Source: Candidatus Aenigmatarchaeota archaeon (GTDB lineage: Archaea > Aenigmatarchaeota > Aenigmatarchaeia > QMZP01). Taken from it: a stretch of 64,000 bases of DNA. The position numbers were made by a program, and so were the translations under genes. Below, one piece after another: positions 33,393-41,867 of the stretch. The stretch's first letter is position 1. Each line of letters opens with the position of its first letter. The stretch spans positions 1 to 64,000 of the forward strand of contig JACQII010000013.1 of NCBI GenBank assembly GCA_016198585.1, in the 5' to 3' direction. The notes beneath the pieces were generated by a model that worked only from the letters and a program-made list of their open reading frames with translations, had not been told where the DNA came from and ran no database searches.

Positions 33393-33464
33393 AGGATGCG
33401 TCTGACTGCGGGAAGTGGCACCCACCTTAAAAATATTTATATGTCCCCACGCGCAAACAGGGGG

Positions 33465-34094
33465 ATGGACGACGGCCTGAACAGGCACGAACGCCGCATG
33501 CTCAAGCGCGAGCAGAAGCAGCAAGAGCGCAGCCAACAGGAGACCCAGGAGAAGCGGCAGTCCAGGAAGAAGAACCTCCTCGGTGCAGGAGTCGCCCTCG
33601 TGCTGATCATCATCGGTGGCTATGCTGTCACCTCGCTGCCCGCAGCGCCCGGTCCGGCTCCAGAATTTGACCTCTCCGGTATCCCCAATTCCTTCGTCCA
33701 CTGGCACGCGGACGTCGACGTGGTGGTCTGCGGCGAGGAGCACGAGTTCCCCGAGGCCCTGCCCGGCGGATCGATCGGTGTCCCCAGCATGCACACCCAC
33801 GACCAGACCGTCAACATCCAGAGCCTCCCCGGCTCGGACGGCAACGGCGTCATCCACAACGAGGCCGTGATCCCCCAGCAACCGGCCGAGCAGACCCTTG
33901 GCAAGTTCCTCGACCTCATGGGCGTGCCCTTTAGCCAGGGGACGGTCCTGGACAAGCAGGATGGCGACACCTGCCCGGACGGCACCGCAGGGACGGTCAC
34001 CTTCCGGGTGAACGGCCAGCCCAATGACCAGTGGCGCAACTACATCCCCCGCGACGGCGATGTCATCGTGATCGCCTTCGCAGGCGCGGCATGA
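33465..34094 (+). CDS. Membrane-anchored HWH-motif protein, probable metal-binding
   Basis: A basic coiled N-terminus (NRHERRMLKREQKQQERSQQ), one membrane helix, and an extracytoplasmic domain with HWH (79-81), C89, H93, HTH (110-112) and H131. The same pattern occurs in the protein at 41034. Such His/Cys spacing suggests a metal site, perhaps copper, in line with the neighbours. The ATG at 33465 is 25-30 bp from an A/T tract (aaatatttatatg, 33431-33443), which excludes the earlier in-frame ATGs. The end overlaps a small Cys-rich gene (ATGA). Confidence 0.7.
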   Translation: MDDGLNRHERRMLKREQKQQERSQQETQEKRQSRKKNLLGAGVALVLIIIGGYAVTSLPAAPGPAPEFDLSGIPNSFVHWHADVDVVVCGEEHEFPEALPGGSIGVPSMHTHDQTVNIQSLPGSDGNGVIHNEAVIPQQPAEQTLGKFLDLMGVPFSQGTVLDKQDGDTCPDGTAGTVTFRVNGQPNDQWRNYIPRDGDVIVIAFAGAA

Positions 34095-34273: not shown

Positions 34274-34771
34274 CTACTCCAGGAAACGGAAGCGCTTCAC
34301 CAGGCCGGTGCGCGCCCACCAGTCACCGAGGCCGTACCACTTCCCTGGCTTGACCGCGGCGATGCCGAGGAGCGCAAACAGGTAGATGATGTGCTCATCG
34401 ATGAGCGGGTTGTTCTTGGGAAGCAGGAGCGCGGTGTACATGAGCAGCATCAGCAGCGCCCCGGCGTAGCCGGCGAGCCGGTTGGCGATCCCCAGGATCA
34501 GCGTGACGCCCAGCAGCAGCAAGGCGAGCATGAACAGCATGTCCACGGCGACGTTCCCGGCCATCGCCTGGTACATCCCGGCGAGGGGACCGGTGGTCCC
34601 GAACTGCAGGAAACCCAGCGTCGGCGAGTTGCCCGCCAGCCAGGACTTGTCCGCAGCGGTGGCAAATCCCAGCCCGAGCAGCTTGTCGAAGAATGCCCAG
34701 AGAAAGATCCAGCCCAGCCCCAGCCGGATGGCCACCCAGGCCTTCGCCCCTGGAGGCGCAGGATCTCCCAT
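34274..34771 (-). CDS. DoxX-like membrane protein
   Basis: The 165-residue protein has about four transmembrane helices and the DoxX pattern (AIRLGLGWIFLWAFFDKLLGLGF, GIANRLAGYAGALLMLLMYTALL, DEHIIYLFALLGIA). DoxX/DoxD proteins are membrane subunits linked to thiol or thiosulfate oxidation and redox homeostasis, which suits this thiol-rich region. The substrate is unknown. A TATA-like tract (gttttaagc, about 34791-34799) lies upstream. Confidence 0.8.
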   Translation of the reverse strand: MGDPAPPGAKAWVAIRLGLGWIFLWAFFDKLLGLGFATAADKSWLAGNSPTLGFLQFGTTGPLAGMYQAMAGNVAVDMLFMLALLLLGVTLILGIANRLAGYAGALLMLLMYTALLLPKNNPLIDEHIIYLFALLGIAAVKPGKWYGLGDWWARTGLVKRFRFLE

Positions 34772-36170: not shown

Positions 36171-36929
36171 ATGGACCGCCTCGAAACCCTCGCCCGTGAC
36201 CTCCTCCCCGACCAGTATCTGCCGCCGTTCCTCTACGCCTTCGCGGGCGGGAAGCTCATCCGGCCACGGATCCTCCGGCTGGTCTGCGACCGCCTCGGGC
36301 AGGATCCCGTCCCCCTGGAAAAGGCCGCGCTCGCGATCGAGGTCCTCCACTGTGCGACGCTGCTGCACGACGACGTGGTCGACGGCGACGGCAGCCGCCG
36401 CGGGAAGCCGACCTTCCACGCCCGCTTCTCCCCGAAGCAGGCCATCCTCTCCGGGGATTACTTCGCGCTCACCGCACTCGACCTGGTCCAGCGCCACTAC
36501 CCGACGCTCACGACTGCCTTCCTGGCAGCTGTCCGGGACGTGGCCGTGGGCCAGCTGATGGAGTTCGCCCCGCTGCCCGACCTCCGGAGCTACCTGGACT
36601 ACGCGGACAAGAAGACGGCCTCGCTGTTCGCCCTCGCCGCGGCCGTCCCCTGCGCGGTCTTCCAAACCGATCTGGGCTGGATCGCCTGGGCGCGCGACCT
36701 GGGAGTCGCCTTCCAGATGGCGAACGACCTGCAGGGCAGTCCGAGGGAATCCCATTCGGTCCTGGCCGTCCTCTCGCGGAGCGAGGCCGAGCGCGACTTG
36801 GCCGCGCGGCGAGCGCAGCTGCAGCAGAAGGTGGAGAACAACGATCAGGAGTTTATAGCGGACATCCTGACGCCGCGGCCAGACTCTCAAGGGACTGCCG
36901 GCCGACCAGCCGCTGGCCGTCCTTCGTGA
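36171..36929 (+). CDS. Short polyprenyl diphosphate synthase-like protein
   Basis: The 252-residue protein has the first Asp-rich motif DDVVD (67-71) of trans-prenyltransferases with surrounding sequence (AIEVLHCATLLHDDVVDGDGSRRGKP), but the second is NDLQG (185-189) instead of DDxxD. It is about 70 residues shorter than usual. It may be a non-catalytic or altered-chain-length subunit. The SD ggtgaggagg precedes the ATG, 8 bp after the UbiA stop, so the pair forms an operon for quinone or lipid side chains. Its 3' end overlaps the convergent thioredoxin gene by 77 bp. Confidence 0.75.
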   Translation: MDRLETLARDLLPDQYLPPFLYAFAGGKLIRPRILRLVCDRLGQDPVPLEKAALAIEVLHCATLLHDDVVDGDGSRRGKPTFHARFSPKQAILSGDYFALTALDLVQRHYPTLTTAFLAAVRDVAVGQLMEFAPLPDLRSYLDYADKKTASLFALAAAVPCAVFQTDLGWIAWARDLGVAFQMANDLQGSPRESHSVLAVLSRSEAERDLAARRAQLQQKVENNDQEFIADILTPRPDSQGTAGRPAAGRPS

Positions 36930-37386
36930 TCCAGGTCGGGTAGCCGGTGATCCCTTTCTCGTCGCAGAGCGCGGGCTGGGCCTTTCCTTCCGGGTCTCCG
37001 GCAGCGCACTCCACGTAGTTCACCAGCCGGAACGAGTTCCCGAAGTCGAGCTTCTGGCGCGCGCAGTTCGGACACCAGTACGCCCCGTACTCGACCATTC
37101 CCTGGTCGGTCAGGCACTGGGCGAACGCATCATACTGGCCGGGCTGCTGGGTCATGTAGCCGGTGTAGGAGGAGACGCCGAACGCTGCGGCAGCGAGAAC
37201 CACGACGACCACGATGACCCACCCCGCGGTCTTGAGCCGCTTCCTGGTCCGGGCGGACCGCTCCTGCCCCTGGGACTGTGTCTCCCGCATCTCCCGTTCG
37301 AGGCGGCGCCGTTCCTTCCGCGACAGGCCAGGTCCGTCCTGCGGAGGCGTGGTCGGTTGGGGTGCATCCTGCGGAGATTCATCCAT
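36853..37386 (-). CDS. Membrane-anchored thioredoxin-like protein (CPNC)
   Basis: A basic cytoplasmic N-terminus (KERRRLEREMRE), one membrane helix (residues 55-72), and a thioredoxin-like domain with YGAYWCPNCARQK (C105, C108) and the GYPTW cis-Pro segment. This type of domain is usually fused to VKOR. Here VKOR is encoded 120 bp away on the other strand. It may be oxidised by VKOR or reduced by CcdA. A TATA box lies near 37408-37417. Confidence 0.85.
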   Translation of the reverse strand: MDESPQDAPQPTTPPQDGPGLSRKERRRLEREMRETQSQGQERSARTRKRLKTAGWVIVVVVVLAAAAFGVSSYTGYMTQQPGQYDAFAQCLTDQGMVEYGAYWCPNCARQKLDFGNSFRLVNYVECAAGDPEGKAQPALCDEKGITGYPTWITKDGQRLVGRQSLESLAAASGCPL

Positions 37387-37504: not shown

Positions 37505-37978
37505 ATGGGGACCAGGGAGCGCCGGAACCTGAAGATCATCGCCATCATCTCGGTGGTGAACATCCTGATCGCCGGCTACCTGCTCTACACCAAGTATTCA
37601 GGCGCCAAGAGCTTCTGCGACTTCTCTCCGGAGATCTCGTGCGACGCGGTGAGCCAGTCCCCCTACGCTGAGCTCCCGGCCAACTCCGGGATCCCGGTCG
37701 CGGGCCTCGGCGTCATCGCCTTCCTCCTCTTCCTCATCCCGACCCTTGCCCTCCTGCGCCAGTCCGGAGGCTTCCTCTTCAGCCGGCCGGTCGTCCACCG
37801 GCTCTTGCTCGTCTGGGGGATCTTCAGCCTGCTCTTCTACGTCTACCTCACCTACCTGGAGCTCTACGTGATCTACGCCCTCTGCCCGCTCTGCATCGTC
37901 ACCTTCGCCCTGACCATCGTCCTCCTCCCGTTCCTCGCGGACAACGTCCGCCTCGTCAAGAAGAAGGAGGCCTCATGA
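37505..37978 (+). CDS. VKOR-family membrane protein
   Basis: The 157-residue, four-helix protein has the VKOR cysteines: C38 and C46 in the loop (SFCDFSPEISCDAV) and the CPLC active site (C127, C130) facing quinone. It oxidises DsbA or thioredoxin partners and passes electrons to quinone, replacing DsbB. A TATA-like tract (gtttatatgg) lies about 28 bp upstream. It overlaps a thioredoxin-like lipoprotein gene (ATGA), its likely partner. Confidence 0.93.
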   Translation: MGTRERRNLKIIAIISVVNILIAGYLLYTKYSGAKSFCDFSPEISCDAVSQSPYAELPANSGIPVAGLGVIAFLLFLIPTLALLRQSGGFLFSRPVVHRLLLVWGIFSLLFYVYLTYLELYVIYALCPLCIVTFALTIVLLPFLADNVRLVKKKEAS

Positions 37979-38373
37979 ACCAACTCCCCGCACTCCTGGT
38001 CCTCGTCGGCGTCCTGGCCATCAGCGGCTGCACCGCTCCCGCGGCAGTGGACTATTCCGCCTTCAGCACCTGCGTCAAGGATGCAGGCGTGGTGGAATAT
38101 GGCGCCTATTGGTGTCCGAACTGCGCGCGGGTCAAGCTGACCCTCGGCGACGCCTGGAAGAACCTGGCCTACGTCGAATGCGACCCCAAGTGCGTGGCCA
38201 ACGCCCAGGGCGCCCTGCCCGACTTCTGCAACGGTTTCACCAGCCAGACCGACCAGTGCCTGCAGCTCGGTGTCGACAAGTACCCGAGCTGGGAGAAGGA
38301 CGGGCAGATCCTCTACGTCGGGACTGACCTGGCCAGGGTCGCGGAGATCAGCGGCTGCGCGCTGCCTGAGTAG
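37975..38373 (+). CDS. Thioredoxin-like lipoprotein (CPNC)
   Basis: A lipoprotein signal with lipobox ISGC (C19) is followed by a thioredoxin-like domain with YGAYWCPNCARVK (C47, C50), several other cysteines (C33, CDPKC, DFC, QC) and the cis-Pro region DKYPSW. The gene overlaps VKOR and lies 3 bp before a CcdA-like gene, so it may sit between oxidising and reducing membrane partners. Confidence 0.88.
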   Translation: MNQLPALLVLVGVLAISGCTAPAAVDYSAFSTCVKDAGVVEYGAYWCPNCARVKLTLGDAWKNLAYVECDPKCVANAQGALPDFCNGFTSQTDQCLQLGVDKYPSWEKDGQILYVGTDLARVAEISGCALPE

Positions 38374-38376
38374 CCT

Positions 38377-39228
38377 ATGAAAACCTCGAAGACGGCCGCC
38401 CGCGGCCCCGGTGCGCAGAGCAGGACCACCATCTACGCGAAGCGGTCGCCCCGCCGCCGGCTGGTCGGGATCGGCATCATCTACATCGTCGCCGTCTACC
38501 TGACCTACCTCCTTGCCGGCCTCGGCCTCATCTGGTTCCAGGGCACGCTGATCACCCTCGGCCTCGCCGTCTACCTGGGCGCGGTCGTGGGCGTCATCCT
38601 GCTCGCCTTCGGCCTGCTGGAGATCAAGGACTTCTTCTGGTACGGGCGCGGCCTCTCCCTGGCCATCCCGACCCGGTTCACCGCGACGATCAAGGCCCGG
38701 GCGGCCCATGTGACCGGAGTTGGCGCGATTCTCCTGGGGATCTTCGTGGCCATGGTCGAGCTGCCCTGTACGGGAGGACCGTACCTGGCCATCACCGCTA
38801 TCCTGGCCGGAGGCTTCGACTCCCTCGCCTTCTCCTACCTCGCCCTCTACAACTTCATCTTCGTCCTCCCGCTCATCATCATTGTCGCGCTCGCCGCGCT
38901 CGGCGTGCGGTACGAGAAGATGAAGGCCTGGAAGGAGACCCGGAAGAAGTGGATGCGCCTCGTGGCCGGCCTGCTCCTGGTCTGCTTCGGCGTCTTCATC
39001 CTCGCCTACTACGCCGGCCTGGTCAACCTGGAGTACATCGGCGTCTCCACCGGACCGGGCCAGGCGATCAGCCTGCAGACCCTGACCCTGCCCGTCATCC
39101 TGATCACCGCCGCCATCGACTCGGTCAACCCCTGCGCGATCGGCGTGCTCCTGCTGTTGATCGCGACCCTGGTCTCCGTGAGCCGGGCAGAGAAAGTCCA
39201 GATCAAGCAGGCGATCGCGGACAGATAG
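38377..39228 (+). CDS. Circularly permuted CcdA/DsbD-beta-like protein
   Basis: The 283-residue membrane protein contains all CcdA helices but in changed order. Residues 30-215 match helices 2-6 of the paralog at 40292 (IYIVAVYLTYLLAGLGL, IKDFFWYGRG, VELPCTGGPYLAI with C131). The first helix of CcdA, with the second redox cysteine (ITAAIDSVNPCAIGVLLLLI, C253), comes at the C-terminus. Both ends are basic (KRSPRRR; SRAEKVQIKQ), as expected if both face the cytoplasm. It should move reductant across the membrane to thioredoxin-like proteins such as the one encoded just upstream. Confidence 0.85.
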   Translation: MKTSKTAARGPGAQSRTTIYAKRSPRRRLVGIGIIYIVAVYLTYLLAGLGLIWFQGTLITLGLAVYLGAVVGVILLAFGLLEIKDFFWYGRGLSLAIPTRFTATIKARAAHVTGVGAILLGIFVAMVELPCTGGPYLAITAILAGGFDSLAFSYLALYNFIFVLPLIIIVALAALGVRYEKMKAWKETRKKWMRLVAGLLLVCFGVFILAYYAGLVNLEYIGVSTGPGQAISLQTLTLPVILITAAIDSVNPCAIGVLLLLIATLVSVSRAEKVQIKQAIADR

Positions 39229-39974: not shown

Positions 39975-40247
39975 TCACGAGACGTCCCGGTGTGTCCGGT
40001 ACATGAACGCCGCGTCCTTGTGGTGCTTCGCGATCTGCCTGGTCACTTCCTTGAAGAGCTGGTCGGCGGTGACGGCCGGCTTGGCCGCGATCCAGGTTTT
40101 CACGCCCCGGGAGACCTTCTCGCAGATCTTTTCCGCCTCCCGGTGGGGCACGTGGGAGGAGAGGCAGGCCGCGTAGCAGGAGGCGTAGACCTTCCGCTCG
40201 TCGAACCGTTCCTTGTGCCCTTGCCGCTTCACGACATGTTGCTGCAT
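39975..40247 (-). CDS. Stand-alone ATP-cone domain protein
   Basis: The 90-residue protein follows the ATP-cone pattern: VVKRQGHKERFDERKVYASCYAACLSSHVP...AEKICEKVSRGVKTW...TADQLFKEVTRQIAKHHKDAAFMYRTHR. ATP-cones normally regulate ribonucleotide reductase or NrdR; here it is alone and has C24 and C28. It follows the CcdA gene in the same direction, 44 bp away, so nucleotide control of a redox function is possible. An ATG at 40253 is an alternative start. Confidence 0.8.
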   Translation of the reverse strand: MQQHVVKRQGHKERFDERKVYASCYAACLSSHVPHREAEKICEKVSRGVKTWIAAKPAVTADQLFKEVTRQIAKHHKDAAFMYRTHRDVS

Positions 40248-40291
40248 ACTCATGACCTCGATCCCGTTTCCGGTTGCGCCTTTCCAAAGGC

Positions 40292-41002
40292 TCAGCCGAA
40301 GTTGATGGTCCCGTTCGCGATCAGCATCAGCAGCCAGCCCATGGCGATCAGCATCAGCCCGGTGAAGAGCCGCATGTAGCCGCGGTTCTCCTGCTTCCAC
40401 TTCTTGACGTCCTGGAGCTTCTTGCCGCCGGCGACGGCGAACAGGATGATCACCAAGGGGAGCACGAAGATGATGTTATAGAGGATCAGCATCAGCAGGG
40501 CGGTGAAGTCGAAGTACTGGGAGAGCAGGGTGATGATCGCCAGGTACGGCGCGCCCGTGCAGGGCAGTTCAACGGCCGAGACGAACGCGCCGAGCGCGAC
40601 CACGCCTGGGAGCGTGGTCTTCGAGGCGTAGCCGTGGATCTTCTTCGCGAGGAAGCCCGGGATCTGCAGCGAGAAGCCCCGGCCGTACCAGAAGAAGTCC
40701 TTGATCTCGAACGCCCCGGCGGCGATGATGAACATCCCCACGATGATCGAGAGGTACTCGGTCAGGACCAGCGGGATCGAAGAGAAGAAGTACACCAGGC
40801 CGAGCCCGGCGAGCAGGTAGACCGCGAACACGCTCAGGATGTAGACCCCGCCGTAGAGCAGCAGCTTCCCGGTCGACTTCTTCCCGGCCAGGATCACCGA
40901 GATCATGAGGATCAGCACGCCGATCGCGCAGGGGTTGATCGAGTCGATCGCCCCGGTCAGCACGACCGTCGTCAGCGTCGGCAGGTAGGCCTCTACTGCC
41001 AT
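40292..41002 (-). CDS. CcdA/DsbD-beta-like membrane protein (normal order)
   Basis: The 236-residue, six-helix protein has the two redox cysteines of the CcdA family in the usual order: DSINPCAIG in helix 1 (C25) and VELPCTGAPYLAI in helix 4 (C148), with EIKDFFWYGRG between. It carries electrons from cytoplasmic thioredoxin to extracytoplasmic thiol proteins. It provides the reference for the permuted paralog at 38377. Confidence 0.9.
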   Translation of the reverse strand: MAVEAYLPTLTTVVLTGAIDSINPCAIGVLILMISVILAGKKSTGKLLLYGGVYILSVFAVYLLAGLGLVYFFSSIPLVLTEYLSIIVGMFIIAAGAFEIKDFFWYGRGFSLQIPGFLAKKIHGYASKTTLPGVVALGAFVSAVELPCTGAPYLAIITLLSQYFDFTALLMLILYNIIFVLPLVIILFAVAGGKKLQDVKKWKQENRGYMRLFTGLMLIAMGWLLMLIANGTINFG

Positions 41003-41033: not shown

Positions 41034-41867
41034 TCATAGCATCGTCACCTGTCCCCGTTCAAGGGCGAGCCGGTACGTCTCGCAGATCCGGTCCGTCCGC
41101 GGCTTCTCCTGGTCAAGCTCAATGATCAGGCAGTCCCCGGGCGGGATGTTGCCATGAGGCGAGAGCACATAGCCACCCAGGTCGTCGAGCTTGACTTGCT
41201 CGACCAGGAAACCCGACCGCCTGGTGTCGTCCGGGTTGGTCACGCGGTAGACGAAACCCTGCAGCGTCCCCGGAGCGCCGTTGCAGAGGTCGCCGTCCTG
41301 GAGGAAGGCCGGCCCGTCATTGGTGGGAACGGTCAGTTTCCCCGGCTCCTCGAAGCCGCCGACCGTCTCGATGAACGCATGCAGGTTCACGTCCTGCAGG
41401 TCGACGACCACGCCTTCGACGTGGATCCGGTTGTCGCCGTGTTCGTGCAGGACCGGGCTCCCGACCCGGTTCTCGAGGCCGGTCGGGTCGACCAGGTCGA
41501 CCTCCTGTCCGCAGTTCCAGATCTCGAAGTCCGTGTGCCAGTGGACCGGGCCACCGGTGGCGGAGACCGCGTTCAGATAGACCGTCGAGACTACCAGGTA
41601 GCCTGTCGCCAGGACAACAGGCACCATGATCAGCAGGAACAGCAGCGTGCTCGTGACCGGGCCCTTCTGGGTCTTGGCGAGCGAGATCACGACCCCGATG
41701 GCTGCCAGCACGCCCGCGACCGCCACCGCGGCTACCGAGGCAGCGGAGATGTCCGCGTCCAGGGTGTTCTCGATGCCCGGAGCGTCATGGGCAAGCGCAG
41801 CAGGCGCCGCCAAGGCGACCGCCAGCGCGGCTGCCAGTAGAAGAAAGACGGTGCTCCGGGCCTCCAT
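41034..41867 (-). CDS. Membrane-anchored HWH-motif protein, second paralog
   Basis: The 277-residue protein has a signal peptide (to about residue 26), two membrane helices, and an extracytoplasmic domain with HWH (109-111), C119, HEH (141-143), H149 and further C-terminal cysteines. It is related to the protein at 33465 in motif order. A metal-binding role outside the membrane is likely. A TATA box (gatataaggg, 41890-41899) lies 28 bp upstream, so it is transcribed apart from the operon that follows. Confidence 0.7.
   Translation of the reverse strand: MEARSTVFLLLAAALAVALAAPAALAHDAPGIENTLDADISAASVAAVAVAGVLAAIGVVISLAKTQKGPVTSTLLFLLIMVPVVLATGYLVVSTVYLNAVSATGGPVHWHTDFEIWNCGQEVDLVDPTGLENRVGSPVLHEHGDNRIHVEGVVVDLQDVNLHAFIETVGGFEEPGKLTVPTNDGPAFLQDGDLCNGAPGTLQGFVYRVTNPDDTRRSGFLVEQVKLDDLGGYVLSPHGNIPPGDCLIIELDQEKPRTDRICETYRLALERGQVTML

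Follow-up and report, generated by a model that had tools for sequence, protein, structure and literature searches.

The 64,000-nt stretch of DNA analysed here (the window) carries a predicted operon that is headed by a VKOR family gene, continues with the gene of a thioredoxin-like lipoprotein and closes with a CcdA-like gene. Sequence comparisons confirm that this last open reading frame (38377-39228; ATG 38377, stop 39226-39228), which the preliminary description had located correctly, encodes a CcdA/DsbD-TM-like protein with the helix order TM2-3-4-5-6-1. An N-terminal extension is followed by TM2, TM3, TM4 with C131, TM5, TM6, a linker, TM1 with C253 and a tail (Table 1). A TAG at 38371-38373, one codon ahead of the ATG, closes the permuted frame, which rules out a hidden upstream N-terminal helix. 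The TAG of the lipoprotein gene (38371-38379 region) shares its frame with the CcdA start, from which one codon separates it. A lipoprotein-CcdA fusion by readthrough of this TAG was considered and set aside, since L005, a second permuted locus, differs in spacing at this point, where its two genes are out of frame.

Table 1. Features of the permuted gene and of genes around it; positions are those of the window.
Feature	Position	Strand	Remarks
Circularly permuted CcdA-like protein, 283 aa	38377-39228	+	Swapped blocks relative to the paralog, rotation tests
N-terminal extension, residues 1-28	38377-38460	+	Basic (+9), fast-evolving, predicted cytoplasmic
TM2-TM6 block, residues 29-213	38461-39015	+	Contains EIKDFFWYG and the TM4 motif VELPC131TGG
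TM6-TM1 linker, residues 214-233	39016-39075	+	Predicted extracytoplasmic, kept in 3/3 permuted proteins
Moved TM1, residues 234-267	39076-39177	+	Contains DSVNPC253AIG
C-terminal tail, residues 268-283	39178-39225	+	Net charge +2, predicted cytoplasmic
Thioredoxin-like lipoprotein	37975-38373	+	Lipobox C19, site C47-P-N-C50; adjacent upstream gene, predicted redox partner
VKOR family protein	37505-37978	+	PF07884, E 1.4e-25; heads the same predicted operon as the permuted gene
Normal-order paralog	40292-41002	-	HWH-associated CcdA-like subfamily
Membrane-anchored protein	41034-41867	-	Conserved HWH...C...H.H segment
Membrane-anchored protein	33396-34094	+	Conserved HWH...C...H.H segment

We compared the protein with its paralog by BLASTP and found two blocks that are swapped in order relative to the paralog: residues 17-217 align with paralog residues 35-234 (45% identity, 169 bits), and residues 230-267 with paralog residues 2-39 (47%, 43.9 bits, E 7e-10). 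With a doubled paralog as the target, both blocks merge into a single 203-bit alignment. When the permuted proteins were rotated, their scores against three proteins of normal order rose by 43-95 points; the optimal cuts lay at about 216-238, and controls of normal order showed zero gain. The moved block scored 142 against a protein of the archaeon AR10, with a maximum of 54 in 2,000 shuffles. A profile of 43 normal homologs gave two domains in reversed order on the permuted protein, model positions 34-232 at residues 19-218 (E 1e-77) and 3-43 at residues 234-274 (E 1e-15). When a leftover CcdA fragment was sought near the gene, the other matches to the moved helix reached at most 16 bits, which is the chance level. 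Each element of a CcdA-like protein occurs once, the order is rotated, and homology extends along the entire protein. The swapped blocks and the rotation tests thus bear out the preliminary description, in which the first helix with its redox cysteine had moved to the C-terminus, C131 lay in VELPCTGG and C253 in DSVNPCAIG (both positions are correct), and no CcdA remnant was left upstream or downstream.

Two further permuted genes, at loci L004 and L005, allowed conservation to be followed across the new order. All 37 residues that are invariant in the 43 normal homologs are kept in the three permuted proteins, in reordered blocks; among them are ELPCTG in TM4 and, in the moved helix, D, N, P, C, G and V. 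The proline-preceded cysteines C253 (NPC) and C131 (LPC), invariant in the 43 normal homologs, are found in 3/3 permuted proteins. Among the three permuted genes, dN/dS was 0.10-0.26 for the whole gene, 0.06-0.30 for the moved TM1 and 0.17-0.37 for the TM6-TM1 linker, and the N-terminal extension was the fastest-changing part. These ratios indicate that the permuted gene is under purifying selection, moved helix included. Together, these data support a permutation that is real and functionally constrained.

We then looked at how widely the permuted order occurs. In 84,980 species genomes, a pattern-led scan returned 105 relatives, of which 80 were kept, and a helix-order test was run on these 80 and on loci from 60 related genomes. 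Only three genes, those of the window, L004 and L005, had the moved helix downstream (L084, L085 and L113 being second views of the same permuted genes); in the other loci tested, its best match was directly upstream. L004 and L005 are both labelled Aenigmatarchaeota and have 78% protein identity to the window protein. Whole-length profile matches were found in 3/156 genomes of the phylum; at strict E-value limits, three other phyla, sampled with 371, 87 and 379 genomes, yielded none. About 105 other loci and about 990 profile-searched genomes yielded no further permuted copies, and viral contigs no relatives. The permuted gene, present in three small archaeal species, is rare. The three genomes that carry it are metagenome bins, about 75% complete, which may hide a separate normal-order copy of this subfamily; the other two also carry normal-order genes of the HWH type described below.

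As the permuted genes were all taken from metagenome bins, of which the two with names derive from a single co-assembly, an assembly misjoin or a chimeric contig might mimic a permutation. This is very improbable, given that the same junction occurs in three species, in different contigs, with the reading frame, the linker and the tail conserved, and that the upstream thioredoxin and VKOR genes are common to the window and L005. Three species that differ at 43-67% of synonymous sites have the junction, linker and tail in common, so that a misjoin can in practice be dismissed.

The history of the permutation was examined in a tree of 109 sequences, in which the permuted ones had been restored to normal order beforehand. 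The three permuted proteins form one clade (support 100/100) inside a nine-row set (100/99), together with normal-order proteins from AR10, a Woesearchaeon, and a Nitrospinaceae and a Methylococcales genome. The closest normal-order relatives, L006 and the AR10 protein L007, are 52-57% identical to the permuted protein. In view of the normal order in close relatives and the nesting in the tree, the permutation is best read as derived, with a single origin, and as fairly recent.

The neighbouring genes separate two types of CcdA-like gene. A thioredoxin-like gene is found within the locus in 28/80 cases and directly beside CcdA in 26 of the 80, L005 and L007 included, and VKOR is present in 17; an HWH protein occurs in 46, nearly always adjacent to the CcdA-like gene. 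On sequence and neighbourhood, we class the permuted gene as the thioredoxin/VKOR-associated type and the window paralog as the HWH type. Hence, the paralog, which the preliminary description had used as its normal-order comparison, does have the normal order but belongs to another subfamily (HWH-CcdA), and the closest counterparts are L007 and L006. AR10 has an adjacent thioredoxin-like lipoprotein gene and normal-order CcdA gene with a convergent VKOR-like gene, and elsewhere an HWH-CcdA pair. A candidate tandem-duplicate intermediate in AR10 (G159:C1:391414, match 180-279) was rejected as a spurious extension, because L116 holds just the normal HWH-CcdA pair.

Several observations concern the other genes nearby. 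Neither of the two HWH proteins of the window matched a Pfam or NCBIfam model significantly. Relatives of the one next to the paralog adjoin CcdA-like genes in 46/80 loci, and in L126 a domain similar to it is fused to a CcdA-like domain in a 658-residue frame. The HWH domain is probably an uncharacterised partner domain of the HWH CcdA subfamily, and perhaps binds metal. A small protein with the pattern KRxGHKExFDExKxYASCY...THRD, which we take to be ATP-cone-like, is encoded at 39975-40250 (-) in the window, at 2346-2718 in L125 and at about 2107-2566 in L116; it adjoins the HWH-CcdA pair in the window, G001 and AR10. Divergent from the VKOR operon lies a gene (36853-37386, -) whose product is another thioredoxin-like protein, anchored at its N-terminus and bearing a GAYWCPNC site as in the lipoprotein. 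In L004 and L005, the permuted CcdA is directly followed by a further gene, presumably for a DoxX-like membrane protein; in the window this gene lies at 34274-34771 (-), some 3 kb ahead of the VKOR operon, a local rearrangement.

None of the Pfam and NCBIfam models, DsbD_TM included, matched the permuted protein, and the sole match in a sequence-profile search of the PDB was weak (a thiol-disulfide interchange protein chain, E 0.44). Among the 43 normal-order homologs, 41 match Pfam SfLAP and 16 match DsbD_TM (best 1.6e-8), and the paralog matches ArsG weakly; the designation CcdA/DsbD-beta-like given earlier therefore holds at the superfamily level only. The SfLAP and ArsG matches could also mean that the conduit function has been lost or changed and that the protein is an SfLAP/ArsG/LysE-related transporter or accessory subunit. 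We consider this unlikely: both cysteines are invariant in their P-C contexts in the 43 normal and 3 permuted proteins, DsbD_TM does match some of the normal homologs, a thioredoxin-like gene adjoins and VKOR is close by. The predicted role as a thiol conduit is supported by the two invariant cysteines and the operon context.

Charge distribution was used to place the loops. Net charges on the inferred inner side are +9 (N-terminus), +4 (TM3-4), +5 (TM5-6) and +2 (tail), against 0, -1 and -1 on the inferred outer side, which fits N-in/C-in. Both termini had been called strongly basic, which is right for the N-terminus, but the C-terminal tail is only mildly so. The new ends map to the TM1-TM2 loop, which is basic and predicted to be cytoplasmic; therefore, both termini would have passed from outside to inside with the helix orientations unchanged, and the topology would be preserved, as the preliminary description had argued.

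AlphaFold2 gave a pLDDT of 82.7 and a pTM of 0.75 for the permuted protein, from an alignment of the three permuted proteins with normal homologs split into TM1 and TM2-6 pieces, in which just 3 rows join TM1 to the rest, and 82.3 and 0.78 for the paralog. In both models the TM1 helix breaks at NPC (238-250/252-282 in the permuted protein, 10-20/24-39 in the paralog); this kink, like the loop charges, agrees with an unchanged 3D arrangement. With the permuted model, Foldseek found no significant match and VIA-align nothing informative; the paralog model aligned with 5VKV over 187 residues (Z 6.1, rmsd 4.8), a score that unrelated LeuT-fold rows equal. The prediction is of a monomer only, and a linker of about 20 residues could permit the moved helix to pack into a neighbouring subunit, giving a domain-swapped dimer. 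This arrangement is quite unlikely, as zero conserved residues are altered and the predicted topology puts the end of TM6 and the beginning of TM1 together on the outer face, where a short linker suffices. The moved helix would then sit within its own subunit, each helix could take its former place, and Cys131 (TM4) and Cys253 (TM1) would still be able to pair.

As for its origin, the probable starting point is a tandem duplication of the ancestral CcdA-like gene in a VKOR-thioredoxin-CcdA operon. Of the two copies, the first would have lost its start and TM1, the second everything beyond TM1, and readthrough between the copies would have produced the TM6-TM1 linker. The linker resembles the L006 C-terminus (YYAAGVHL) and the L006 N-terminus (ALESVTLP), with about 12 residues joining them, a join of the kind expected from a duplication followed by fusion and loss of the two ends. 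The function is likely unchanged, by analogy with the family: electrons would pass from cytoplasmic thioredoxin through Cys131-Cys253 to the CPNC site of the neighbouring extracytoplasmic lipoprotein, which would be reduced, and VKOR would form the opposite, oxidising branch. In summary, we give a probability of roughly 0.8 to the account as a whole, in which a six-helix conduit underwent a natural, fairly recent permutation by way of tandem duplication and kept its function.

Compared with known systems, the protein is closest to the normal-order thioredoxin/VKOR-associated proteins (AR10 L007 4995-5693, L006, L012, L017 and L083), with which it has all invariants in common and which, as in the window, have a thioredoxin-like neighbour gene and often VKOR; TM1 is N-terminal in all of them and C-terminal in the window protein. 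The CcdA/DsbD transmembrane domain (DsbD_TM PF02683; CcdA NMR structure 5VKV) likewise has six helices, with TM1 and TM4 cysteines near prolines and a proposed thiol relay, but its similarity to the window family is distant and it is not permuted. That a natural permuted CcdA is undescribed, as the preliminary description supposed, agrees with the literature searched, where we found none, a literature that misses most subscription journals.

Circular permutation is well known for soluble proteins. A 2020 paper stated that it is not observed in membrane proteins and cited engineered rhodopsins (PMC7162841). VKOR and DsbB had been related by circular permutation in 2015, reported as the first case for helical membrane proteins (PMC4555120); the operon at 37505-39228 pairs this VKOR family with a permuted CcdA. 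Like the window protein, VKOR and DsbB are helical membrane thiol oxidoreductases whose permutation is explained by duplication and deletion, but their case is ancient and inferred from structure, and two of four helices have moved instead of a single one. Type I ABC importer and MacB-like transmembrane domains are related by a one-helix permutation (PMC6588880), in which a terminal helix takes the position of the helix at the opposite end, as in the window protein; theirs is a remote structural link between families without a recent sequence-level record. The earlier helical-membrane cases that we found (PMC4555120, PMC6588880) are thus ancient, remote structural inferences. The gene in the window, in all likelihood, represents a recent, sequence-traceable permutation of a polytopic helical membrane protein, in which one helix has moved and the termini have switched membrane side, and it is unusually informative because its unpermuted relatives are so close. 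It offers a natural experiment on whether a membrane protein can alter its insertion order and the side of its termini and yet retain its helix packing and redox chemistry, and it bears on how fold permutations arise and membrane proteins are re-threaded.
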